A stretch of 64,000 bases of DNA from Actinomyces sp. oral taxon 171 str. F0337. Lineage in GTDB: Bacteria; Actinomycetota; Actinomycetes; Actinomycetales; Actinomycetaceae. Of the stretch, positions 12,770 through 21,462 are shown piece after piece (positions within the stretch are counted from its first letter, which is position 1; every line of letters begins with the position of its first letter). The notes beneath the pieces were generated by a model. The model was not told the DNA's origin. It saw only the letters and a list, made by a program, of their open reading frames with translations, and made no database searches. Location: NCBI RefSeq assembly GCF_005696555.1, contig NZ_CP040005.1, positions 1,984,001 through 2,048,000 of the forward strand, read 5' to 3'. The position numbers and the translations under genes were made by a program.

Positions 12770-13594
12770 ATGCGTATCGGGTTCATCGGCGCCGGCAACA
12801 TGGTCAGCGCCATTGTGCGAGGGGCCGTGGCCGCGGGGACACCGGCCGGGCACCTGCTCCTGACCAGCAAGCACGGCTCCGCCGAGCGCCTGGCCGGGCA
12901 GGTCGGAGCAGTCCACGTGCCCGACGCCGCCGAGCTGGTCTCACGCAGCGACGTCCTCATCCTGGGACTCAAGCCCTACGTCATCCCCGACGTCCTGCCC
13001 CGGCTGTCGGAGGCCATCGGCCGCAGCAGGCCCCTGGTGGTCTCCATCGCTGCCGGCCTGACCCTGGAGCGCCTGGAGTCGATGCTGCCCGACGGGGCCC
13101 GGGTGGTGCGCACCATGCCGAACATGGCCGCCGCCGTGGGCGAGTCGATGACGGCACTGGCCCCGGGGAGCAGTGCGAGCGCCTCGGACCTGGAGACGGT
13201 GCGCACCCTCATGGAGAGCATCGGTCGCACCGTCATCCTGGAGGAGAAGGACTTCTCCTCCTTCATTGGCCTGGCGGGCTCCTCCCCCGCCCTGGTGTGC
13301 GCCTTCATCGATGCCCTGGCGCGCGCCGGCGTCATGGGTGGCATCCCCAAGGCCCTGGCCGTCCAGATCGTGGCTCAGGCGGTGCTGGGGACCGCCCGCA
13401 CGGTGCAGACCGAGGCTCAGCGCACCGCGGAGGGAGGCAATGGCCGCACCCCGGCCGACCTCATCGACGCGGTCTGCTCCCCCGGCGGCACGTCGGTGGC
13501 GGGCATGGTGGCCCTGGAACGGGCCGGTTTCTCCGACGCCGTCGTGCGCGCCTTCGAGGCCATCGCCGAGCGCGACCGGCAGCTGGGCGCCTGA
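12770..13594 (+). CDS. proC: Pyrroline-5-carboxylate reductase
   Basis: Last step of proline synthesis: NAD(P)H reduction of 1-pyrroline-5-carboxylate. The 274-residue protein starts with the Rossmann motif GFIGAGNM, contains VVRTMPNMAAAVGE, and the ProC C-terminal signature region LIDAVCSPGGTSVAGM near residue 235. Length is normal for the family. The ATG is preceded by AGGAGG at good spacing. Confidence 0.96.
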   Translation: MRIGFIGAGNMVSAIVRGAVAAGTPAGHLLLTSKHGSAERLAGQVGAVHVPDAAELVSRSDVLILGLKPYVIPDVLPRLSEAIGRSRPLVVSIAAGLTLERLESMLPDGARVVRTMPNMAAAVGESMTALAPGSSASASDLETVRTLMESIGRTVILEEKDFSSFIGLAGSSPALVCAFIDALARAGVMGGIPKALAVQIVAQAVLGTARTVQTEAQRTAEGGNGRTPADLIDAVCSPGGTSVAGMVALERAGFSDAVVRAFEAIAERDRQLGA

Positions 13595-13730
13595 GCTCAG
13601 ACGCGGTCCCACCCCGCTGCCGCACGCCACCACAGGCACAGCGTGCGCAGCACGACCCTTTTCTGCGTCCCGACACGATAAAGCGGCTCTCAACAACCCT
13701 GTCGTGATTCAAAGCACAGATCATTCTTGC

Positions 13731-13759
13731 TTGTCGTCAGGTAAATGCATGGCTAATGT
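13731..13759 (+). promoter_or_regulatory. Promoter of the sulfate assimilation operon, giving a leaderless leader peptide
   Basis: A -35-like TTGTCG (13731-13736) and a -10-like TAATGT (13754-13759) are separated by 17 bases. The ATG of the cysteine-rich leader peptide follows the -10 after exactly 7 bases, the spacing at which actinobacterial leaderless transcripts start at their own initiation codon. No ribosome site precedes that ATG, in agreement with leaderless translation. Confidence 0.6.
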
Positions 13760-13766
13760 TTCGGCC

Positions 13767-13853
13767 ATGACCTTCTCTCACGCAGCTCGCTTCAGCGGTA
13801 CCCATCCCGCTGACGTTCTGCGTGCCCATGCTGTCATGTGTTGTCGGGCCTGA
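13767..13853 (+). CDS. Cysteine-ending leader peptide upstream of the sulfite reductase operon
   Basis: A 28-codon ORF whose last residues are VMCCRA, with two adjacent TGT cysteine codons just before the stop. It lies 188 bases upstream of the sulfite reductase start and seems to be leaderless. Mycobacteria use leaderless polycysteine leader ORFs as cysteine-responsive attenuators before sulfur genes, and this ORF has the same logic: a ribosome stalled for Cys-tRNA at CC would change folding of the RNA ahead. The peptide itself needs no function. Confidence 0.7.
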   Translation: MTFSHAARFSGTHPADVLRAHAVMCCRA

Positions 13854-13869
13854 CCAGCGCCTGACACCA

Positions 13870-14041
13870 CGGGGACTTCACCCCCGCAACGAGGTATCCG
13901 GCGCAATGAAGCGTCCGGAAGGCCCCGTTGAGACGGCTGACGCCAACCGAACGGCCCTGCAGGCTCTGCACGCAGCTGCACACCAGGCCGACCCCGGACG
14001 CTCCTCATACGCCAATGACACGCCACCGTCATGGAGGAGCA
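13870..14041 (+). promoter_or_regulatory. Leader RNA with a hairpin that sequesters the sulfite reductase ribosome site
   Basis: GCTCCTCAT (14000-14008) can pair with ATGGAGGAGC (14031-14040), hiding the Shine-Dalgarno sequence GGAGGAG that stands directly before the reductase ATG at 14042. Further upstream are CGGGG-loop-CCCCG (13870-13886) and a TCCGGCGC/GCGTCCGGA hairpin (13897-13919). These provide alternative foldings between the leader peptide and the first structural gene, as an attenuator requires. The pairings were found by eye; no energies were calculated. Confidence 0.55.
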
Positions 14042-15745
14042 ATGACCACCACCGTCACGCCACCCGCGCGCACTCTGCGCCCGCCGCGCAAGGCCCGTTC
14101 CAACGGCCAGTGGGCCCTCGACGGGCGCAAGCCGCTCAATGACAACGAGGCCTTCAAGCAGGACGGGGACCCGCTGGCGGTGCGCGACCGGATCATGCAC
14201 ATCTACGGCCCCGGCGGCTACGAGACCATCGCACCCGACGACCTCAACGGCCGTTTCCGCTGGTGGGGCCTGTACACCCAGCGCAAGCAGGGCATCGACG
14301 GCGGCCGCACCGCCCAGCTGGACGTCTCCGAGCTCTCCGACCACTACTTCCTGCAGCGGGTGCGTCTGGACGGTGGGAGTCTGAGCCGCGAGCAGCTGCG
14401 GGTACTGGGCTCGGTCTCCAACGACTTCGCCCGCGGCACCGCCGACATCACCGATCGCCAGAACATCCAGCTCCACTGGGTGGAGATCGGCAGCGTGCCT
14501 GAGCTGTGGCAGCGCCTGGAGTCGGTGGGTCTGACCACGATCGAGGGCTGCGGGGACACACCCCGGGGGTTCCTGGTCTCCCCGGTGGCCGGCATCGCCA
14601 AGGACGAGGTCATCGATCCGACCCCACTGGCCCGGGCCATCAAGGACACCTACCTGGGCGACCCCGAGCTGGCCAATCTGCCCCGCAAGTTCAAGACGGC
14701 CATCACCGGCTCCCCCAGCCTCGACATCCTCCACGAGATCAACGACATCTCCTTTGTCGGCGTCAACCACCCCGAGCTCGGTCCCGGCTACGACCTGTGG
14801 GTGGCCGGCGCCCTGTCCACCGCCCCACGTCTGGGCCAGCGGCTGGGGGCCTTCGTCACGCCGGAGGACGCCCTCGACGTCTGGTACGGCGTCATCCGCA
14901 TCTTCCGCGACTACGGCTACCGTCGCCTGCGCAACAAGGCCCGGCTGAAGTTCCTCATGGCCGAGTGGGGGCCGGAGAGATTCCGCCAGGTCCTCCAGGA
15001 CGACTACCTGGGGCGCGCCCTGCCCGACGGACCGGCCCCCGAGGAGCCGAGCGGGGACTCCGACCACATCGGCGTCCACGAGCAGAAGGACGGCCGCTTC
15101 TGGGTGGGGGCCAAGCCACCCGTCGGCCGGTTGAGCGGTGACGTCCTGCTGGGTCTGGCCGACCTGGCTGAGCGGGTCGGCTCGGACCGCGTGCGCACCA
15201 CCCCGCTGCAGAACCTGCTGCTCCTGGACGTGCCTGCCGACAGAGTCGACGAGGCCGTCGCCGGCCTGCGGGCGCTGGGGCTCGATCCTGACCCGGGTGC
15301 CTTCACCCGCTCGACCCTGGCCTGCACCGGGCTGGAGTTCTGCAAGTTCGCGATCGTGGAGACCAAGAAGCTGGCAGCGCGCGTATCGGCCGAGCTCGAC
15401 GCACGCCTGGCGGACACCGACCTCGAGCGACGCATCACCCTGACCGTCAACGGCTGCCCGAACTCCTGCGCCCGCATCCAGATCGCCGACATCGGCCTCA
15501 AGGGCCAGATCATCACGGTCGACGGCGAGCAGATGCCCGGCTTCCAGGTGCACCTGGGCGGCGGCCTGGCCACCGACGGACGCACCGAGGCCGGTCTGGG
15601 CCGCACGGTCAGGGGCCTCAAGGTCCCCGCCTCCGGCCTGACCGACTACGTCGAGCGCCTGGTGCGCCGCTACCTGGACCAGCGCCTCCCTGAGGAGACC
15701 TTCGCCCAGTGGGCGCACCGAGCCGATGAGGAGGCCCTGCAGTGA
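14042..15745 (+). CDS. cysI: Ferredoxin-dependent assimilatory sulfite reductase (nitrite/sulfite reductase family)
   Basis: Six-electron reduction of sulfite to sulfide with siroheme and a [4Fe-4S] cluster. In the 567-residue protein the cluster and siroheme ligands are CTGLEFC near residue 427 and NGCPNSC near residue 478, the C-x5-C ... C-x3-C pattern of the family. Nitrite reductases share these motifs; sulfite is chosen because cysH, cysD, cysN and siroheme genes follow. The ATG has GGAGGAG directly upstream. The gene starts an operon whose next seven junctions are overlaps or very short gaps, and it is preceded by a cysteine leader peptide. Confidence 0.93.
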   Translation: MTTTVTPPARTLRPPRKARSNGQWALDGRKPLNDNEAFKQDGDPLAVRDRIMHIYGPGGYETIAPDDLNGRFRWWGLYTQRKQGIDGGRTAQLDVSELSDHYFLQRVRLDGGSLSREQLRVLGSVSNDFARGTADITDRQNIQLHWVEIGSVPELWQRLESVGLTTIEGCGDTPRGFLVSPVAGIAKDEVIDPTPLARAIKDTYLGDPELANLPRKFKTAITGSPSLDILHEINDISFVGVNHPELGPGYDLWVAGALSTAPRLGQRLGAFVTPEDALDVWYGVIRIFRDYGYRRLRNKARLKFLMAEWGPERFRQVLQDDYLGRALPDGPAPEEPSGDSDHIGVHEQKDGRFWVGAKPPVGRLSGDVLLGLADLAERVGSDRVRTTPLQNLLLLDVPADRVDEAVAGLRALGLDPDPGAFTRSTLACTGLEFCKFAIVETKKLAARVSAELDARLADTDLERRITLTVNGCPNSCARIQIADIGLKGQIITVDGEQMPGFQVHLGGGLATDGRTEAGLGRTVRGLKVPASGLTDYVERLVRRYLDQRLPEETFAQWAHRADEEALQ

Positions 15746-16533
15746 GCGCCGCAACCGCTGAAAGTGCCCGGGTGCCCCTGGGCCTGCCGCACCGGGCTCC
15801 TGCCGCCTCAAGGTCACGGGGCGCCGGCCGGGCCTCGCTGCGGTCCGCCGAGGAGCTGCACGCCCTCGCCGAGGCCGGAGCGCGCGAGCTCGGAGACGAC
15901 GCCCCGGCCCTCGACGTCGCCCAGTGGGCGGCCCAGAACTTCCCCAGCACACTGGCCGTGGCCTGCTCCATGGCCGACGCCGTCCTGCCGCACGTGATCT
16001 CCCGGGTCCTGCCCGGCGTCGACGTCCTCTTCCTGGACACCGGGTACCACTTCGCGGAGACCGTGGGCACCCGCGACGCGGTGGCCGCCACCATGGACGT
16101 CACCGTCGTCGACGTGGCTCCCGAGCTGAGCGTGGCCGAGCAGGACGAGCGCCACGGGCCGGACCTGTGGTCACGGGACCCGGCCGCCTGCTGCCGTCTG
16201 CGCAAGGTCGAGCCGCTGGCCCGGGCCCTGAGCGGCTACGAGGCCTGGGCCACCGGGGTGCGCCGCGAGGACGCCCCCACCCGCACCCGCACGCCGCTGA
16301 TCGGATGGGACACCACCCACGAGATCGTCAAGATCAACCCCCTGGCCGCTTGGAGCATGGCGGACCTGACCGGCTACGCCGACCAGCACGGCGTTCTCAT
16401 CAACCCCCTCCTCTACGACGGCTACCCCTCGATCGGCTGCGCCCCGTGCACGGCGCGAGTCAACCCCGGAGACGACCCCCGTTCCGGCCGCTGGGCCGGA
16501 TTCACCAAGACAGAATGCGGAATCCACCTATGA
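15742..16533 (+). CDS. cysH: Adenylylsulfate (APS) reductase, iron-sulfur type
   Basis: Reduces APS (or PAPS) to sulfite with thioredoxin or a similar donor. The 263-residue protein has the fold motif FLDTGYHF, the CC pair in DPAACCRLRKV and the CAPC pair in IGCAPCTARV; these four cysteines bind the [4Fe-4S] cluster that marks APS-using enzymes. The C-terminal KTECGIHL carries the catalytic cysteine. The GTG start overlaps the TGA of the upstream gene by 4 bp, so translation is coupled. No CysC-type APS kinase is seen nearby, in agreement with APS as substrate. Confidence 0.94.
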   Translation: MSAATAESARVPLGLPHRAPAASRSRGAGRASLRSAEELHALAEAGARELGDDAPALDVAQWAAQNFPSTLAVACSMADAVLPHVISRVLPGVDVLFLDTGYHFAETVGTRDAVAATMDVTVVDVAPELSVAEQDERHGPDLWSRDPAACCRLRKVEPLARALSGYEAWATGVRREDAPTRTRTPLIGWDTTHEIVKINPLAAWSMADLTGYADQHGVLINPLLYDGYPSIGCAPCTARVNPGDDPRSGRWAGFTKTECGIHL

Positions 16534-17540
16534 GCATCACCCTGACCCTCACCCAATCGGCCCCGATCTCCTCCCCCGACCCTGCTCAGGCTCCGGGCCG
16601 CGAACCGGTCGGTCTCGCTGACCTTTCCTGGGCCGCCACGGCCGCCGAGACCCTGGACATCCTTGACGTCCTGGAGGCCGAGGCCATCCTCATCATCAGG
16701 GAGATCGCCGCCGAGTGCCGCCGTCCCGTGCTGCTGTTCTCCGGGGGCAAGGACTCCGTGGTCATGCTGCACCTGGCGCGCAAGGCCTTCTGGCCCGCTC
16801 CGATCCCCTTCCCGGTCCTGCACGTGGACACCGGTCACAACTTCCCCGAGGTGCTGGCCTACCGCGACCGGACGGTCGAGGACCTCGGTCTGCGGCTCGT
16901 GGTGGCCCGCGTCCAGGACTACATCGACGACGGCCGTCTGCGCGAGCGCACCGACGGCACCCGCAACCCGCTCCAGACGATCCCACTCCTCGACGCCATC
17001 GAGGAGGGCGGCTTCGACGGCGTCTTCGGCGGCGGACGCCGCGACGAGGAGAAGGCCCGGGCCAAGGAGCGCATCGTCTCCCTGCGCGACGAGTTCGGCC
17101 AGTGGGACCCGCGCAACCAGCGCCCCGAGCTGTGGAACCTGCTCAACCCCCGCCATCGACCCGGCGAGCACGTGCGGGTCTTCCCCTTGAGCAACTGGAC
17201 CGAGCTGGACGTGTGGCGCTACATCGAGCGCGAGGACATCGCGCTGCCCAGCCTCTACTACGCCCATGAGCGCGAGGTCTTCCTGCGCGACGGGATGTGG
17301 CTGGCGGGCGGCGGCGTCAACCGGCTGCGCGACGGTGAGGAGGTCGTCACCCGCACCGTGCGCTACCGCACCGTGGGCGACATGTCCTGCACGGGCGCCG
17401 TCGAGTCCGACGCCGCCACCAACCACGACATCGTCCTGGAGGTCGCCGCCTCCACCCTGACCGAGCGGGGAGCCACCCGCGCCGATGACCGCCTGAGCGA
17501 GGCGGCCATGGAGGACCGCAAGAAGGAGGGCTACTTCTGA
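16530..17540 (+). CDS. cysD: Sulfate adenylyltransferase subunit 2 (small subunit)
   Basis: PP-loop ATP pyrophosphatase subunit that makes APS from sulfate and ATP together with CysN. The loop SGGKDS is near residues 71-76, followed by HVDTGHNF and the conserved GGRRDEEKARAKER segment. It has 336 residues; the family usually has about 300, the excess being an N-terminal Ser/Pro-rich tail. The ATG overlaps the cysH stop (ATGA). A much longer in-frame reading through cysH is rejected because it would be antisensical to the cysH product. Confidence 0.96.
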   Translation: MSITLTLTQSAPISSPDPAQAPGREPVGLADLSWAATAAETLDILDVLEAEAILIIREIAAECRRPVLLFSGGKDSVVMLHLARKAFWPAPIPFPVLHVDTGHNFPEVLAYRDRTVEDLGLRLVVARVQDYIDDGRLRERTDGTRNPLQTIPLLDAIEEGGFDGVFGGGRRDEEKARAKERIVSLRDEFGQWDPRNQRPELWNLLNPRHRPGEHVRVFPLSNWTELDVWRYIEREDIALPSLYYAHEREVFLRDGMWLAGGGVNRLRDGEEVVTRTVRYRTVGDMSCTGAVESDAATNHDIVLEVAASTLTERGATRADDRLSEAAMEDRKKEGYF

Positions 17541-18898
17541 TGAGCGCCCCCACCCTCACCGACATCCCCGCCGAGGCCGACGCACGCGCCGCCGCCACCG
17601 GCTCACTACTGAGACTGGCCACGGCCGGCAGCGTCGACGACGGCAAGTCCACGCTCGTGGGCCGCCTGCTGTTCGACTCCAAGTCCGTCCTGCGCGACCA
17701 GCTGGCCGCCGTCGAGCAGGTCAGCCTGGACCGGGGTCTGACCAGCGCCGACCTCGCGCTGCTGACCGACGGGCTGCGGGCCGAGCGGGAACAGGGCATC
17801 ACGATCGACGTCGCCTACCGCTACTTCGCCACCCCGCAGCGCTCCTTCATCCTGGCCGACTGCCCCGGACACGTGCAGTACACCCGAAACACGGTCACCG
17901 GCTGCTCCACGGCCGACGTCGTCGTGCTGCTGGTGGACGCCCGCAACGGGGTCCTGGAGCAGACGCGCCGCCATCTGGCGGTCGCCGCCCTCCTGCGGGT
18001 CCCGCACGTCATCGTCGCGGTCAACAAGATCGACCTGGTGGACTTCTCCGCCGAGGTCTACGCGGCCATCGAGGCCGATATCCGCGCCGTGGCCGCCGAG
18101 CTGGGCGTGGCCGCGATCCATGTCCTGCCGACCTCCGCGCTCCTGGGCGACAACATCGTCGAGGCCTCGGCCAGCACTCCCTTCTATGCGGGGCCGACCT
18201 TGCTGGGGCTCCTGGAGTCCCTGCCCACCGCCCGCGACGAGGGCGCCTTCCGCCTGCCGGTCCAGCTGGTCATCCGCCCCCAGGGTGCGGCGCCGGCACC
18301 CGAGCTGCGCGACTACCGGGGTTACGCCGGGCAGATCGCCTCGGGCACGGTGCGCGTCGGCGACCCAGTGGTGGCGCTGCCCTCGGGCAGGCGCTCACGC
18401 GTAGCCGGCATCGACCTGGGTGAGCGCAGCCTGGAGGAGGCCGTCGAGGGGCAGTCGGTGACGGTGCGTCTGAGCGACGACGTCGACGTCGCCCGTGGTG
18501 ACACCCTGGCCGCGGCGGGCGATGCGCCGCAGGTGCTCACCGAGGTCACCGCCCGCGTGTCCTGGCTGAGCGAGGAGCCCCTGCGCCCCCGGGCGCGGGT
18601 ACTGCTCAAGCACGGCGCCCTGACGGTCCAGGCGATCGTGGGCACCATTGAGGGCCGCCTCGACCTGGACGACCTGACCACGGTGCCGGCCGATTCCCTA
18701 GAGCTCAACGACATCGGCCTGGTGCAGCTGCGCCTGGCCTCCCCGGTGCCGTTGGCCGACTACTCGGTCTCCCGGTCTGACGGCGCCTTCCTCCTCATCG
18801 ACGCCCACGAGGGCGGCACGCTGGGTGCGGGCATGGTGCAGCTGGCGGGTACAGGCGGCAGTGACCCCGCTACGGCCGCCCCCTCAGGCAGGGGTTGA
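17540..18898 (+). CDS. cysN: Sulfate adenylyltransferase subunit 1 (GTPase)
   Basis: EF-Tu-like GTPase that drives APS formation by CysD. Motifs are GSVDDGKST (G1, near residue 31), DCPGHVQYTRN (G3), and NKIDLVD (G4), then two beta-barrel domains. At 452 residues it is a stand-alone CysN without a fused APS kinase. Start and cysD stop overlap as TGATG. Confidence 0.96.
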   Translation: MSAPTLTDIPAEADARAAATGSLLRLATAGSVDDGKSTLVGRLLFDSKSVLRDQLAAVEQVSLDRGLTSADLALLTDGLRAEREQGITIDVAYRYFATPQRSFILADCPGHVQYTRNTVTGCSTADVVVLLVDARNGVLEQTRRHLAVAALLRVPHVIVAVNKIDLVDFSAEVYAAIEADIRAVAAELGVAAIHVLPTSALLGDNIVEASASTPFYAGPTLLGLLESLPTARDEGAFRLPVQLVIRPQGAAPAPELRDYRGYAGQIASGTVRVGDPVVALPSGRRSRVAGIDLGERSLEEAVEGQSVTVRLSDDVDVARGDTLAAAGDAPQVLTEVTARVSWLSEEPLRPRARVLLKHGALTVQAIVGTIEGRLDLDDLTTVPADSLELNDIGLVQLRLASPVPLADYSVSRSDGAFLLIDAHEGGTLGAGMVQLAGTGGSDPATAAPSGRG

Positions 18899-18901
18899 GG
18901 C

Positions 18902-19693
18902 ATGGCTCTCGAGATCTCTCCCCATGCACCCACCGGCCCCGCGGGCGGCTGGGTGGCCCTGGTAGGTGGCGGCCCGGGCAGCAGCGGCCTCATCACCGCC
19001 CGCGGCCTGGAGCTGTTGGGCCGGGCGGACGTGGTCGTCGTCGACGCGCTGGCACCCCGGGACATCCTGGAGGACCTCACCCCCGGAACCGAGGTCATCG
19101 ACGCCTCCAAACGGCGCGGCCGGCACATCATGAGCCAGGAGGAGATCGATGCGCTCCTGGTCGACCTCGCCCGCCGCGGCAAGGGGGTGGTCCGTCTCAA
19201 GGGCGGCGACCCCTACGTGCTCGGGCGCGGCGGGGAGGAGGCGACCGCCTGCCGCCAGGCCGACATCGCCGTCGAGGTCGTCCCGGGGATCACCAGCGCC
19301 ATCGCCGTGCCCGCGGCGGCGGGAATACCCGTGACCCACCGGGGGCTGTCGCGCGGCTTCTCGGTCATCACGGCTCATGCGGATCTTGGGGTCCTCCCCC
19401 AGCGCCGCGATCACACCCTCATCCTGCTCATGGGGGTCTCCCGCCTGCGGGACTCGGTGACCTCCCTGCTGGAAGCCGGCAGCGATCCGGCCACTCCGGC
19501 AGCGATCATCGAGCGCGGCTACCACCCCGATCAGCGCGTGACCACCACCGAGCTGCGATGTCTGGCCGACGTCGCCACCCGGTACGGCGTGACCGCCCCC
19601 GCGGTCATCGTCATCGGCGACGTCGTCACCCTGAGCCCGTACTGGGCCGACCGAGTCGTCGAGGAGACCAGGCCGGCAAGCCCCGCCGCCTGA
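18902..19693 (+). CDS. cobA: Uroporphyrinogen-III C-methyltransferase
   Basis: Makes precorrin-2, the precursor of siroheme, from uroporphyrinogen III and SAM. The 263-residue single-domain protein has the SAM-binding loop VGGGPGSSGLIT near the N-terminus, VRLKGGDPYVLGRGGEE, and VVPGITSAIAVPAAAGIPVTHR, all typical of SUMT. It lacks the precorrin-2 dehydrogenase/ferrochelatase domain of CysG. It starts three bases after the cysN stop; its place in a sulfite reductase operon points to siroheme rather than cobalamin. Confidence 0.94.
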   Translation: MALEISPHAPTGPAGGWVALVGGGPGSSGLITARGLELLGRADVVVVDALAPRDILEDLTPGTEVIDASKRRGRHIMSQEEIDALLVDLARRGKGVVRLKGGDPYVLGRGGEEATACRQADIAVEVVPGITSAIAVPAAAGIPVTHRGLSRGFSVITAHADLGVLPQRRDHTLILLMGVSRLRDSVTSLLEAGSDPATPAAIIERGYHPDQRVTTTELRCLADVATRYGVTAPAVIVIGDVVTLSPYWADRVVEETRPASPAA

Positions 19694-19735: not shown

Positions 19736-20779
19736 ATGCGCAAGCTTGTTCTTCTCGCCCTCGTCGGCCTGGCCGCTCAACTGGTCGACGGCTCCCTCGG
19801 GATGGGGTACGGCATGACCTCGTCCTCCCTGCTGCTCCTGGCCGGGCTGAGCCCGGCACTGGCCTCGGCCTCGGTGCACCTGGCTGAGATCGGCACGACC
19901 CTGGCCTCGGGGGCCTCCCACTGGCGACTGGGCAACACCGACCCCCGCCTGGTGGTCCGGCTGGGGCTGCCCGGTGCGGTGGGGGCCTTCAGCGGCGCCA
20001 CGGTCCTGTCGCACCTGTCGACCCGCGCAGCGACCCCGGTGACAGCGAGCCTGCTGATCCTGCTGGGGGCCTATGTCCTGGGGCGCTTCGCCCTGCGCCC
20101 GCCCAGGGGATCTGGTAGCCGGCGCTCCCCGCACGGCAGGCGGCTCCTGGTCCCCCTGGGAATGGTGGGTGGTTTCGTTGACGCCACCGGCGGTGGTGGC
20201 TGGGGACCGGTGGTGACGACGACACTGCTCACTGGCGGTCGCACGGCGCCGCGCACCGTGGTCGGTTCGGTAGGGGCCTCGGAGTTCCTGGTGACGGTGG
20301 CGGCCTCGGCCGGTTTCCTCACCGGCCTGGGAACGGCGGGCATCAGCCTCGGGATCGTCCTGACCCTGCTGGCCGGTGGACTGGTGGCCGCACCGGTCTC
20401 CGCCTGGCTGGTCTCCCGTCTGCCCGGGGCGGTGCTGGGCACCGCCGTCGGCGGGCTGATCCTGGCCACGAACCTGCGGGTGCTACTGTCCTGGGCCGGG
20501 GCCTCGGCCAGAACCGGGGTCCTGTTGTACGGCGTACTCGGGGTAGTCTGGGCGGTCTTCCTGGCCCTGGCGGTCCGCAAGGCGCGCGTCACCGCCACAG
20601 AGATTCGGGAGGAGACCGAACAGGTGCTTGAGGAGGTCCACGCCGATCCTCGGCACGGCCACGCACCTGAGACTGCTGCACCGGACGAGCCAATCGCTTC
20701 CGGTGGTCTCGTCGGGTCGAGGCCGGTCGAGCCGGCTCGTTCTCACGCGCGCGCGGATCTGGTGGTGGAGCCGGCATGA
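19736..20779 (+). CDS. cysZ: TSUP/TauE-SafE family permease, probable sulfate/sulfite transporter
   Basis: A 347-residue membrane protein with about eight spans. The N-terminal AAQLVDGSLGMGYGMT and the internal GGFVDATGGGGWGP repeat-half motifs are the hallmarks of the TSUP family. In Corynebacterium glutamicum a family member (CysZ) is encoded in the cys operon and proposed to import sulfate, and the gene order here is similar. The last 60 residues are polar and cytoplasmic. CysZ is used in the corynebacterial sense; E. coli CysZ is unrelated. Confidence 0.82.
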   Translation: MRKLVLLALVGLAAQLVDGSLGMGYGMTSSSLLLLAGLSPALASASVHLAEIGTTLASGASHWRLGNTDPRLVVRLGLPGAVGAFSGATVLSHLSTRAATPVTASLLILLGAYVLGRFALRPPRGSGSRRSPHGRRLLVPLGMVGGFVDATGGGGWGPVVTTTLLTGGRTAPRTVVGSVGASEFLVTVAASAGFLTGLGTAGISLGIVLTLLAGGLVAAPVSAWLVSRLPGAVLGTAVGGLILATNLRVLLSWAGASARTGVLLYGVLGVVWAVFLALAVRKARVTATEIREETEQVLEEVHADPRHGHAPETAAPDEPIASGGLVGSRPVEPARSHARADLVVEPA

Positions 20780-21462
20780 GTACTCGTCCTCTGGTGCTGC
20801 TGGCCCACGGCTCGCGCCGGCCCGGGCCGTCCTCAGTCCTGTCCCGCACCGCCGAGCGCGTCCGCACGATCCTGCCGGAGGTGGAGGTGCGCACCGGCTA
20901 TGTCGAGCTCCAGCCCCCGGACCCGGCCACGGCGCTGGAGGGGCTGGTGGATCCAGTGGTGCTGCCCTTCTTCCTGGCCCGCGGCTATCACGTCCTCAAG
21001 GACGTACCTGCCGCGGTGGAACAGCACGGATCAGGGACGGTCACCGGGCATCTGGGGGTCGAGGAGCACCTGGTGGAGGCCATCGCACAGCGTCTCCACG
21101 AGGCGTCCGCGCCTCTGGGCGGGATCGCAGGGCTCGACCGCATCGTCCTGGGCGCGGCCGGGTCACGTCAGGCGGCGGCGCTGGAGGAGGTCGAGGCCAT
21201 CACTCGCCTGCTCGAGGCGCGTCTGGGGCGCGAGGTGACGCCCGCCTACCTCTCGGCTGCGCGCCCCAGCGTCCGTGACGCGGTGAGCACGGCCCGGGCC
21301 CTGGGGGCCAGGCGGGTGGGTGTGGCCACCTACCTGCTGGCGGAGGGGCGTTTCCACCGGGCCCTGCACTCCACGGGCGCCGACGTCGTAGCCGTCCCGA
21401 TCGGCGACCACCCGGCGATCGCCGAGCTGGTGGCCCGCCGCTACCGGGAGCAGATCGCCTGA
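20776..21462 (+). CDS. sirB: Sirohydrochlorin ferrochelatase (CbiX/SirB/CysY type)
   Basis: Inserts Fe2+ into sirohydrochlorin to complete siroheme. The 228-residue protein begins with VLLAHGSRRPG, the metal-binding His-Gly-Ser motif of CbiX/SirB, and has a second half-repeat with FFLARGYHVLKDVP, in which the second conserved His follows a Gly-Tyr. The ATG overlaps the stop of the permease gene. Together with cobA this gives two of three siroheme steps; the NAD-dependent oxidation of precorrin-2 is not encoded here. Confidence 0.88.
   Translation: MSTRPLVLLAHGSRRPGPSSVLSRTAERVRTILPEVEVRTGYVELQPPDPATALEGLVDPVVLPFFLARGYHVLKDVPAAVEQHGSGTVTGHLGVEEHLVEAIAQRLHEASAPLGGIAGLDRIVLGAAGSRQAAALEEVEAITRLLEARLGREVTPAYLSAARPSVRDAVSTARALGARRVGVATYLLAEGRFHRALHSTGADVVAVPIGDHPAIAELVARRYREQIA

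Follow-up and report, generated by a model that had tools for sequence, protein, structure and literature searches.

Sequence features upstream of the sulfate reduction operon

The window, the whole 64,000-nucleotide stretch of Actinomyces sp. oral taxon 171 str. F0337 DNA that was analysed, carries on its plus strand seven closely packed genes of sulfate reduction and siroheme synthesis, preceded by a leader. The first gene (14042-15745) encodes a sulfite reductase (NIR_SIR; cysI/sirA type) and was assigned from Pfam and its neighbours, with all NCBIfam models below their cut-offs. It is followed by cysH, encoding phosphoadenylyl-sulfate/adenylyl-sulfate reductase (15742-16533), cysD and cysN for the small (16530-17540) and large (17540-18898) subunits of sulfate adenylyltransferase, a uroporphyrinogen-III C-methyltransferase gene of siroheme synthesis (18902-19693) and a TauE/SafE-type transporter gene (19736-20779). 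The last gene (20776-21462) encodes a CbiX-type chelatase (sirohydrochlorin), for which the profile models fell below cut-off. These are the seven genes that the initial annotation of this DNA had claimed to lie downstream of the leader, one of them being the TauE-type transporter.

The interval between proC (12770-13594) and the sulfite reductase gene holds an upstream ORF (uORF) of 28 amino acids, MTFSHAARFSGTHPADVLRAHAVMCCRA*, at 13767-13853 of the plus strand. Its peptide ends AVMCCRA, and its two Cys codons, TGT TGT, occupy 13839-13844. A -10 box, TAATGT (13754-13759), lies 7 nt before the uORF ATG and 17 nt after the hexamer TTGTCG (13731-13736), which together form a candidate promoter at 13731-13759. 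The sulfite reductase initiation region (14031-14044) comprises ATGGAGGAGC (14031-14040), with the Shine-Dalgarno (SD) sequence GGAGGAG, and the ATG at 14042. On direct reading, the positions that the initial annotation had given for TTGTCG, TAATGT, the ORF, ATGGAGGAGC and a further element, GCTCCTCAT (14000-14008), proved correct. Judging from the -10 spacing, the mRNA probably has its 5' end at or close to the uORF ATG, which would make it leaderless. A generic sigma-70 scan of 13590-14060 returned no promoter above its threshold, and a TTGTCG-like -35 element is not evident in many more distant Actinomyces species; the promoter is therefore called from the conserved -10 box alone. At E 10 the uORF peptide matched no NCBIfam or Pfam family, and three related uORF peptides (one queried minus its first residue) matched no NCBIfam family. 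TGT is rare in the window: 24 crude long ORFs contain 90 Cys codons, 6 of them TGT.

Conservation of the leader ORF in Actinomyces

A sulfite reductase is encoded in 28 of 49 Actinomyces genomes, the window's genome included (E 1e-40), and the same 28, all of one genus, have it among 213 genomes of the family (E 1e-60). Because 21/49 Actinomyces genomes gave no sulfite reductase match, sulfate assimilation appears to be patchy within the genus; no match was obtained in other genera of the family sample (213 genomes). By sulfite reductase identity the closest named relatives are A. naeslundii, A. oris and A. johnsonii. The leaders of the other 27 genomes were located via their sulfite reductase genes, and as the 28 genomes are akin to one another the counts given for them are not independent.

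The initial annotation had made its reading depend on conservation of the Cys codons in related genomes and had suggested a search for ORFs ending in Cys-Cys upstream of cysI homologues in other Actinomyces. Such an ORF precedes the sulfite reductase gene in all 28 cysI-bearing genomes, with both Cys codons kept and an MCC[QR]A end that carries one extra residue (R or C) in 5/28. Unlike this end, the N-terminal part differs widely among clades. Cys codon 2 is TGT throughout and Cys codon 1 in 23/28, and the uORF stop lies 164-207 nt before the sulfite reductase start. A TANNNT box is found 7 nt before the uORF ATG in 26 genomes and 6 nt before a GTG in the other two, a geometry that fits a leaderless mRNA in 28/28. 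On the sequences compared, we judge that the combination of a uORF, a -10 box at near-fixed distance and an MCC[QR]A end is more than chance.

Predicted alternate pairings among five conserved RNA segments

Conservation and pairing together define five segments in the leader RNA. Segment A (GTCGGGC, 13843-13849) lies within the uORF and can pair with B (GCGCCTGAC, 13857-13865), B can alternatively pair with C (TCCGGCGC, 13897-13904), C with D (GCGTCCGGA, 13911-13919), and D with E (CCCCGGACGC), which with its tail GCTCCTCAT spans 13992-14008 and has the SD as its other partner. Two exclusive sets of pairings result, one consisting of A:B, C:D and E with the initiation region, and the other of B:C and D:E. 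At the level of the genus, A reads GTC[AG]GGC, the blocks of B, C and D are those given above, and E reads CCGGACGCTC shortly before the gene, this last block being altered in L018, L020, L021, L022 and L028. In the 28 genomes B, C and D are near-invariant amid otherwise diverged leader RNA. The first base of Cys codon 1 is 18 nt from the start of B in 28/28, while the distance from the uORF stop to B is 0 nt (5/28) or 3 nt (23/28); the position of B is thus tied to the Cys codons rather than to the stop.

Scored over 24 distinct rows, A:B plus C:D are formed in 99.2% of 360 cells and B:C in 100% of 168, against 23-48% and 27-40%, respectively, in slid controls. No core pair of A:B, B:C or C:D has changed on both sides inside the genus, so that the pairing is a matter of conservation and not of covariation; as proof of the helices, covariation within the genus was uninformative, the core being invariant. 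The core may be frozen because each inner block has two partners, so that a single substitution would disrupt both helices. In 24/28 genomes at most 3 of 100 shuffles equalled the pairing of D with its best partner upstream of the gene; D:E did not exceed chance in L018, L020 and L028 and did so only marginally in L022. In this comparison, and in the imposed-helix and spacer-shuffle tests described below, the sequence pairing best with D was used as E, and the D:E shuffles were handled likewise; this site, or the one located by motif for the unconstrained folding, may differ from the aligned E in L020, L022 and L028. An Rfam query with 13590-14060 yielded only minus-strand matches below the gathering score (three at E values up to 10, the best at 0.62), and there was none at the gathering score in L003, L019, L029, L119 and L159.

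Predicted masking and release of the sulfite reductase start

In the 12 genomes whose sulfite reductase gene starts ATGACC, the E tail (GCTCCTC or similar) pairs with the SD (GAGGAGC). The gene starts ATGAGC in 16 genomes; in 10 of these the E tail is GCTCA, the complement of the start codon together with codon 2, and in the other six E or its flank pairs with the SD, or does so less clearly. The best E-tail duplex of L030 is a different one. Cognate pairing of E tail and start amounts to -15.0 kcal/mol (12 genomes) and -12.9 kcal/mol (16 genomes), compared with -11.4 and -11.7 kcal/mol when swapped. The best sign of co-evolution is this joint change of codon 2 and E tail between clades, which may reflect one or two events only. 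The initial annotation had described a hairpin that hides the SD. That pairing exists and is part of the predicted default fold, but the description was incomplete, the hairpin being only the last link of a five-segment relay.

In unconstrained folding with A hidden and B free, mean B:C pairing was 0.21-0.42 and mean D:E pairing 0.17-0.33 (free RNA from +6 to +18), and the mean cost of opening the SD fell from ~5.8 to 5.0-5.4 kcal/mol. It returned to 5.7-5.8 kcal/mol once B was hidden too. At +48, where the tested range ended, it dropped again, to 5.2, although the model requires no drop there, and several genomes showed no shift. As the sole test, unconstrained folding was set aside, its mean effect being in the right direction and small; imposed helices and a shuffled control were used instead.

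With B:C imposed, which stands for a ribosome halted on the Cys codons, P(D:E) averaged 0.65, as against 0.03 with A:B imposed (28 genomes), and opening of the initiation region cost 7.7 as against 10.2 kcal/mol, a mean drop of 2.5. The cost with B:C imposed was lower in 24/28 genomes, equal within 0.05 in two (L009, L019) and higher in two (L013, L014); in L004 and L012 it dropped by only 0.2. When the spacer from D to the start was shuffled 30 times each, the mean difference in opening cost was 0.04, and the observed difference was reached by none of the 30 shuffles in 13/28 genomes, by 1-3 in seven and by at least 4 in eight. P(D:E) stayed below 0.25 in 10/28 genomes even with B:C imposed, and in these the start may be released via other pairings. 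Relative to the free ensemble, imposing B:C costs up to 6.7 kcal/mol. Given this cost and the 10 genomes with low P(D:E), the switch must rely on folding order. B:C reaches P of at least 0.99 before D is made in 28/28, and the order of transcription therefore favours B:C.

A diverged copy and a second leader before a transporter gene

A covariance model of segments A to D (R1), built from the 28 cysI leaders and refinding those by construction, gave one further clear match in the 213 family genomes (E 5.8e-6). It lies in G019, an Actinomyces genome without sulfite reductase (L119 / L130, G019:C14:27942-28873). Sixteen weak matches had E values of 9.6e-4 to 0.1; the nine that were examined (L120-L128) were judged by eye to be chance. 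The uORF of the G019 copy ends MCCRP, and the next gene encodes an amino-acid ABC transporter ATPase. A and B are changed and give an A:B of -11.6 kcal/mol, and partners are retained for B:C, C:D, D:E and E with the start. Folded without constraints, this copy retains C:D when A is hidden, and its listed starts have no flagged -10 box ahead of them. The G019 ATPase shares its MSTT beginning with several cysI genes; leader and transporter may thus have been fused by a deletion.

A transporter ATPase of the G019 type occurs in 42/49 Actinomyces genomes, and 30 loci were taken for leaders. A leader with a Met-Cys run precedes the ATPase gene in 25 of the 30, the G019 type in one, and none was shown in four. 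The ORF of the Met-Cys-run leader is 9 to 11 codons long and follows a purine-rich, SD-like stretch. The window's genome has one outside the window (L159, minus strand), where an SD-like stretch and an 11-codon ORF, MRMWMCCCCCR*, are followed by an amino-acid ABC transporter ATPase gene (G000:C1:1808554-1809312) whose product is 79% identical to the G019 protein. The best NCBIfam models for the G019 ATPase, EhuA, GlnQ and TcyN, are all below their cut-offs, and cystine is for this reason proposed as substrate from the leader.

The pattern TGYTGYTGYTGY, which is blind to two-Cys leaders, was used to look for other poly-Cys leaders in the window's genome and occurred at 19 places, compared with 70 for a control pattern. 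Visual inspection left the transporter leader, which accounts for two of these places, as the only short Cys-ending ORF just before a fitting gene. L178 (G000:C1:3087503-3087514, minus strand) is the end, EACCCC*, of a stop-to-stop frame of 235 codons; TTTCACGTGAAAC repeats close by resemble parS sites.

Candidate cysteine leaders outside Actinomyces

Our wider survey started from 513 related loci of named genomes and used the best 80 of them (13 Actinomyces and 67 others; 4/80 with less than 550 nt upstream). Among these best 80, an ORF with Cys-Cys in its last eight residues lies within 550 nt upstream in 31, namely 13/13 Actinomyces and 18/67 others; doublets of nine other residues (W, H, M, F, Y, K, N, Q, I) reached 5/80 at the highest. 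The 18 belong to Isoptericola, Antribacter, Oerskovia, Cellulosimicrobium, Luteimicrobium, Propionibacterium, Brooklawnia, one record named Sphaerisporangium and one Brevibacterium. A T[AG]NNNT box stands at leaderless distance in 17 of them, all but Brevibacterium (a raw count, the box being without a chance control). In a survey of the order, for which 60 upstream regions (one of only 211 bases) were chosen from the 203/396 genomes with the gene, 12/60 had a Cys-Cys-ending ORF, six of these with a box at leaderless distance. From 18/67 named loci and 12/60 order regions, Cys-Cys leaders are a minority outside Actinomyces.

R1 matched none of 17 leaders of Isoptericola, Oerskovia and others at E <0.01. 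Many leaders of Isoptericola, Oerskovia and Cellulosimicrobium (e.g. L192, L194, L207, L210 and L221, in the range L192-L258) show alternating CTCAG/CTGAG words downstream of the Cys ORF; the segment B sequence GCGCCTGAC occurs in 4/16 non-Actinomyces leader sequences examined. A relay of the same topology written in other letters is possible in these three genera.

A proposed cysteine-responsive relay and its alternatives

The element ahead of the operon is very probably a cysteine-sensing leader. We propose that it works as an alternating-RNA relay acting on translation, that is, as a cysteine-responsive translational attenuator, which is the best explanation of the data with a probability of roughly 0.7. 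We infer the transcription start, the stalling, the direction of control and the cysteine signal from the sequence elements, their conservation and spacing, and the predicted pairings. Ribosomes would load without an SD on an mRNA that starts at or near the uORF start codon. With ample Cys-tRNA a ribosome would pass both Cys codons and leave, A:B would form, C:D would follow, and E would settle on the initiation region (OFF); a ribosome at the uORF stop codon would also cover B and again lead to C:D. The front edge of a ribosome lies ~13-16 nt past the start of the first codon on which it halts, here Cys codon 1. With scarce Cys-tRNA the ribosome would halt at the Cys codons, covering A and ending just short of B at +18, B would take C before D is made, D would take E, and the initiation region would be freed (ON). 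The effect would extend to the other six genes via translational coupling or protection from Rho.

The same uORF could instead act through Rho, in that unprotected leader RNA would be terminated, a halted ribosome would block Rho, and the pairings would serve only to expose or hide Rho sites. In the window's genome 188 nt of untranslated leader separate the uORF stop from the sulfite reductase start, and no intrinsic terminator-like site was found between 13767 and 14060, both of which speak for Rho; the sole such site in 13590-14060 (13642-13654) is upstream of the promoter. Rho has also been suggested for mycobacterial cys leaders, a prediction that the accessible text of the source calls weak (Seliverstov 2005, PMC1262725). 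However, E can reach the initiation region by either of two pairings depending on the clade, something that Rho control would not require. We therefore hold this explanation to be unlikely, although the alternation of segments could still feed into Rho.

A nascent-peptide mechanism seems more improbable still. Here MCC[QR]A would be an arrest sequence that senses a cue other than Cys-tRNA, such as thiol redox or a small molecule, and the RNA relay would read the arrest. The Met before Cys-Cys is invariant in 28/28 Actinomyces uORFs, though it lies outside segment A, and Met also precedes the Cys run in 25/25 transporter leaders, as such an arrest might lead one to expect. Against this, the last residues vary (Q or R, with R or C added in 5/28), the leaders of other genera end CCCR, CCCC or CCR and have no Met immediately preceding the Cys run, and the nucleotides of the MCC[QR]A stretch are also needed for A:B. 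A riboswitch that binds a metabolite or tRNA, with the uORF in a secondary role, would fit the strong conservation of the RNA core but is very improbable: there is no Rfam match, alternate pairing accounts for the conserved positions, and the uORF is exactly placed relative to B.

Beyond the proposed translational relay, a genus-wide sulfur-amino-acid circuit built of ribosomes and RNA only can be put forward as a tentative and rather doubtful extension. The MCC[QR]A leader would act on sulfate reduction and the Met/Cys leader on a probable cystine importer, with the invariant Met making for a joint Met-Cys sensor, and the relay would be a movable module that has moved to the importer in a genome without cysI.

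Relation to known systems

In trp-type attenuators the position of the ribosome picks one of two mutually exclusive helix sets. The Actinomyces leader would share this choice, but it would act on translation initiation at the first gene and not through an intrinsic terminator, of which none was found in the leader of the window's genome. The closest known systems are in mycobacteria, where Canestrari et al. are said to have described, in 2020, leaderless polycysteine uORF attenuators in which a stalled ribosome relieves the masking of a downstream ribosome-binding site. Common to both are a short ORF, probably leaderless in Actinomyces, and contiguous Cys codons ahead of sulfur genes. The Actinomyces leader differs in having only two Cys codons, fewer than the Cys runs known elsewhere, followed by Gln/Arg-Ala. 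Compared with the mycobacterial type as described, it also features a five-segment chain conserved across the genus, an 18-nt ruler from Cys codon to B, and a predicted masking target (SD or start codon) that depends on the clade.

Short ORFs with Cys runs near the stop have been noted before cys operons of Mycobacterium and Propionibacterium acnes and before cbs of Bifidobacterium longum (Seliverstov et al. 2005, PMC1262725), and these candidates resemble the present leader in being short ORFs with Cys codons near the stop ahead of cys genes. In its accessible text, that paper includes A. naeslundii in its genome list and names no Actinomyces leader, gives no conserved RNA structure for the cysteine leaders of Actinobacteria, and leaves their mode of regulation open. 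The accessible part of a 2026 report describes M. smegmatis cysteine genes as regulated by translation attenuation (PMC13236596), in line with the reading of the Actinomyces leader as a cysteine attenuator. Titles and abstracts of the open-access literature, a scope outside which most subscription papers fall, yielded no cysteine leader in Actinomyces. To go by these partial sources, cysteine leader peptides of Actinobacteria and leaderless polycysteine attenuators are an already known kind of element. New here, as far as our searches of the literature show, are the genus-wide conserved relay with its ruler, its relocated copy in G019 and the Met-Cys leader that precedes the transporter gene.

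The relay is compact and highly conserved and has a built-in 18-nt ruler, and its read-out is therefore open to test by a few point changes in a reporter. If the proposal is true, the sulfur supply of a common oral genus would be under the control of ribosomes without a dedicated repressor.
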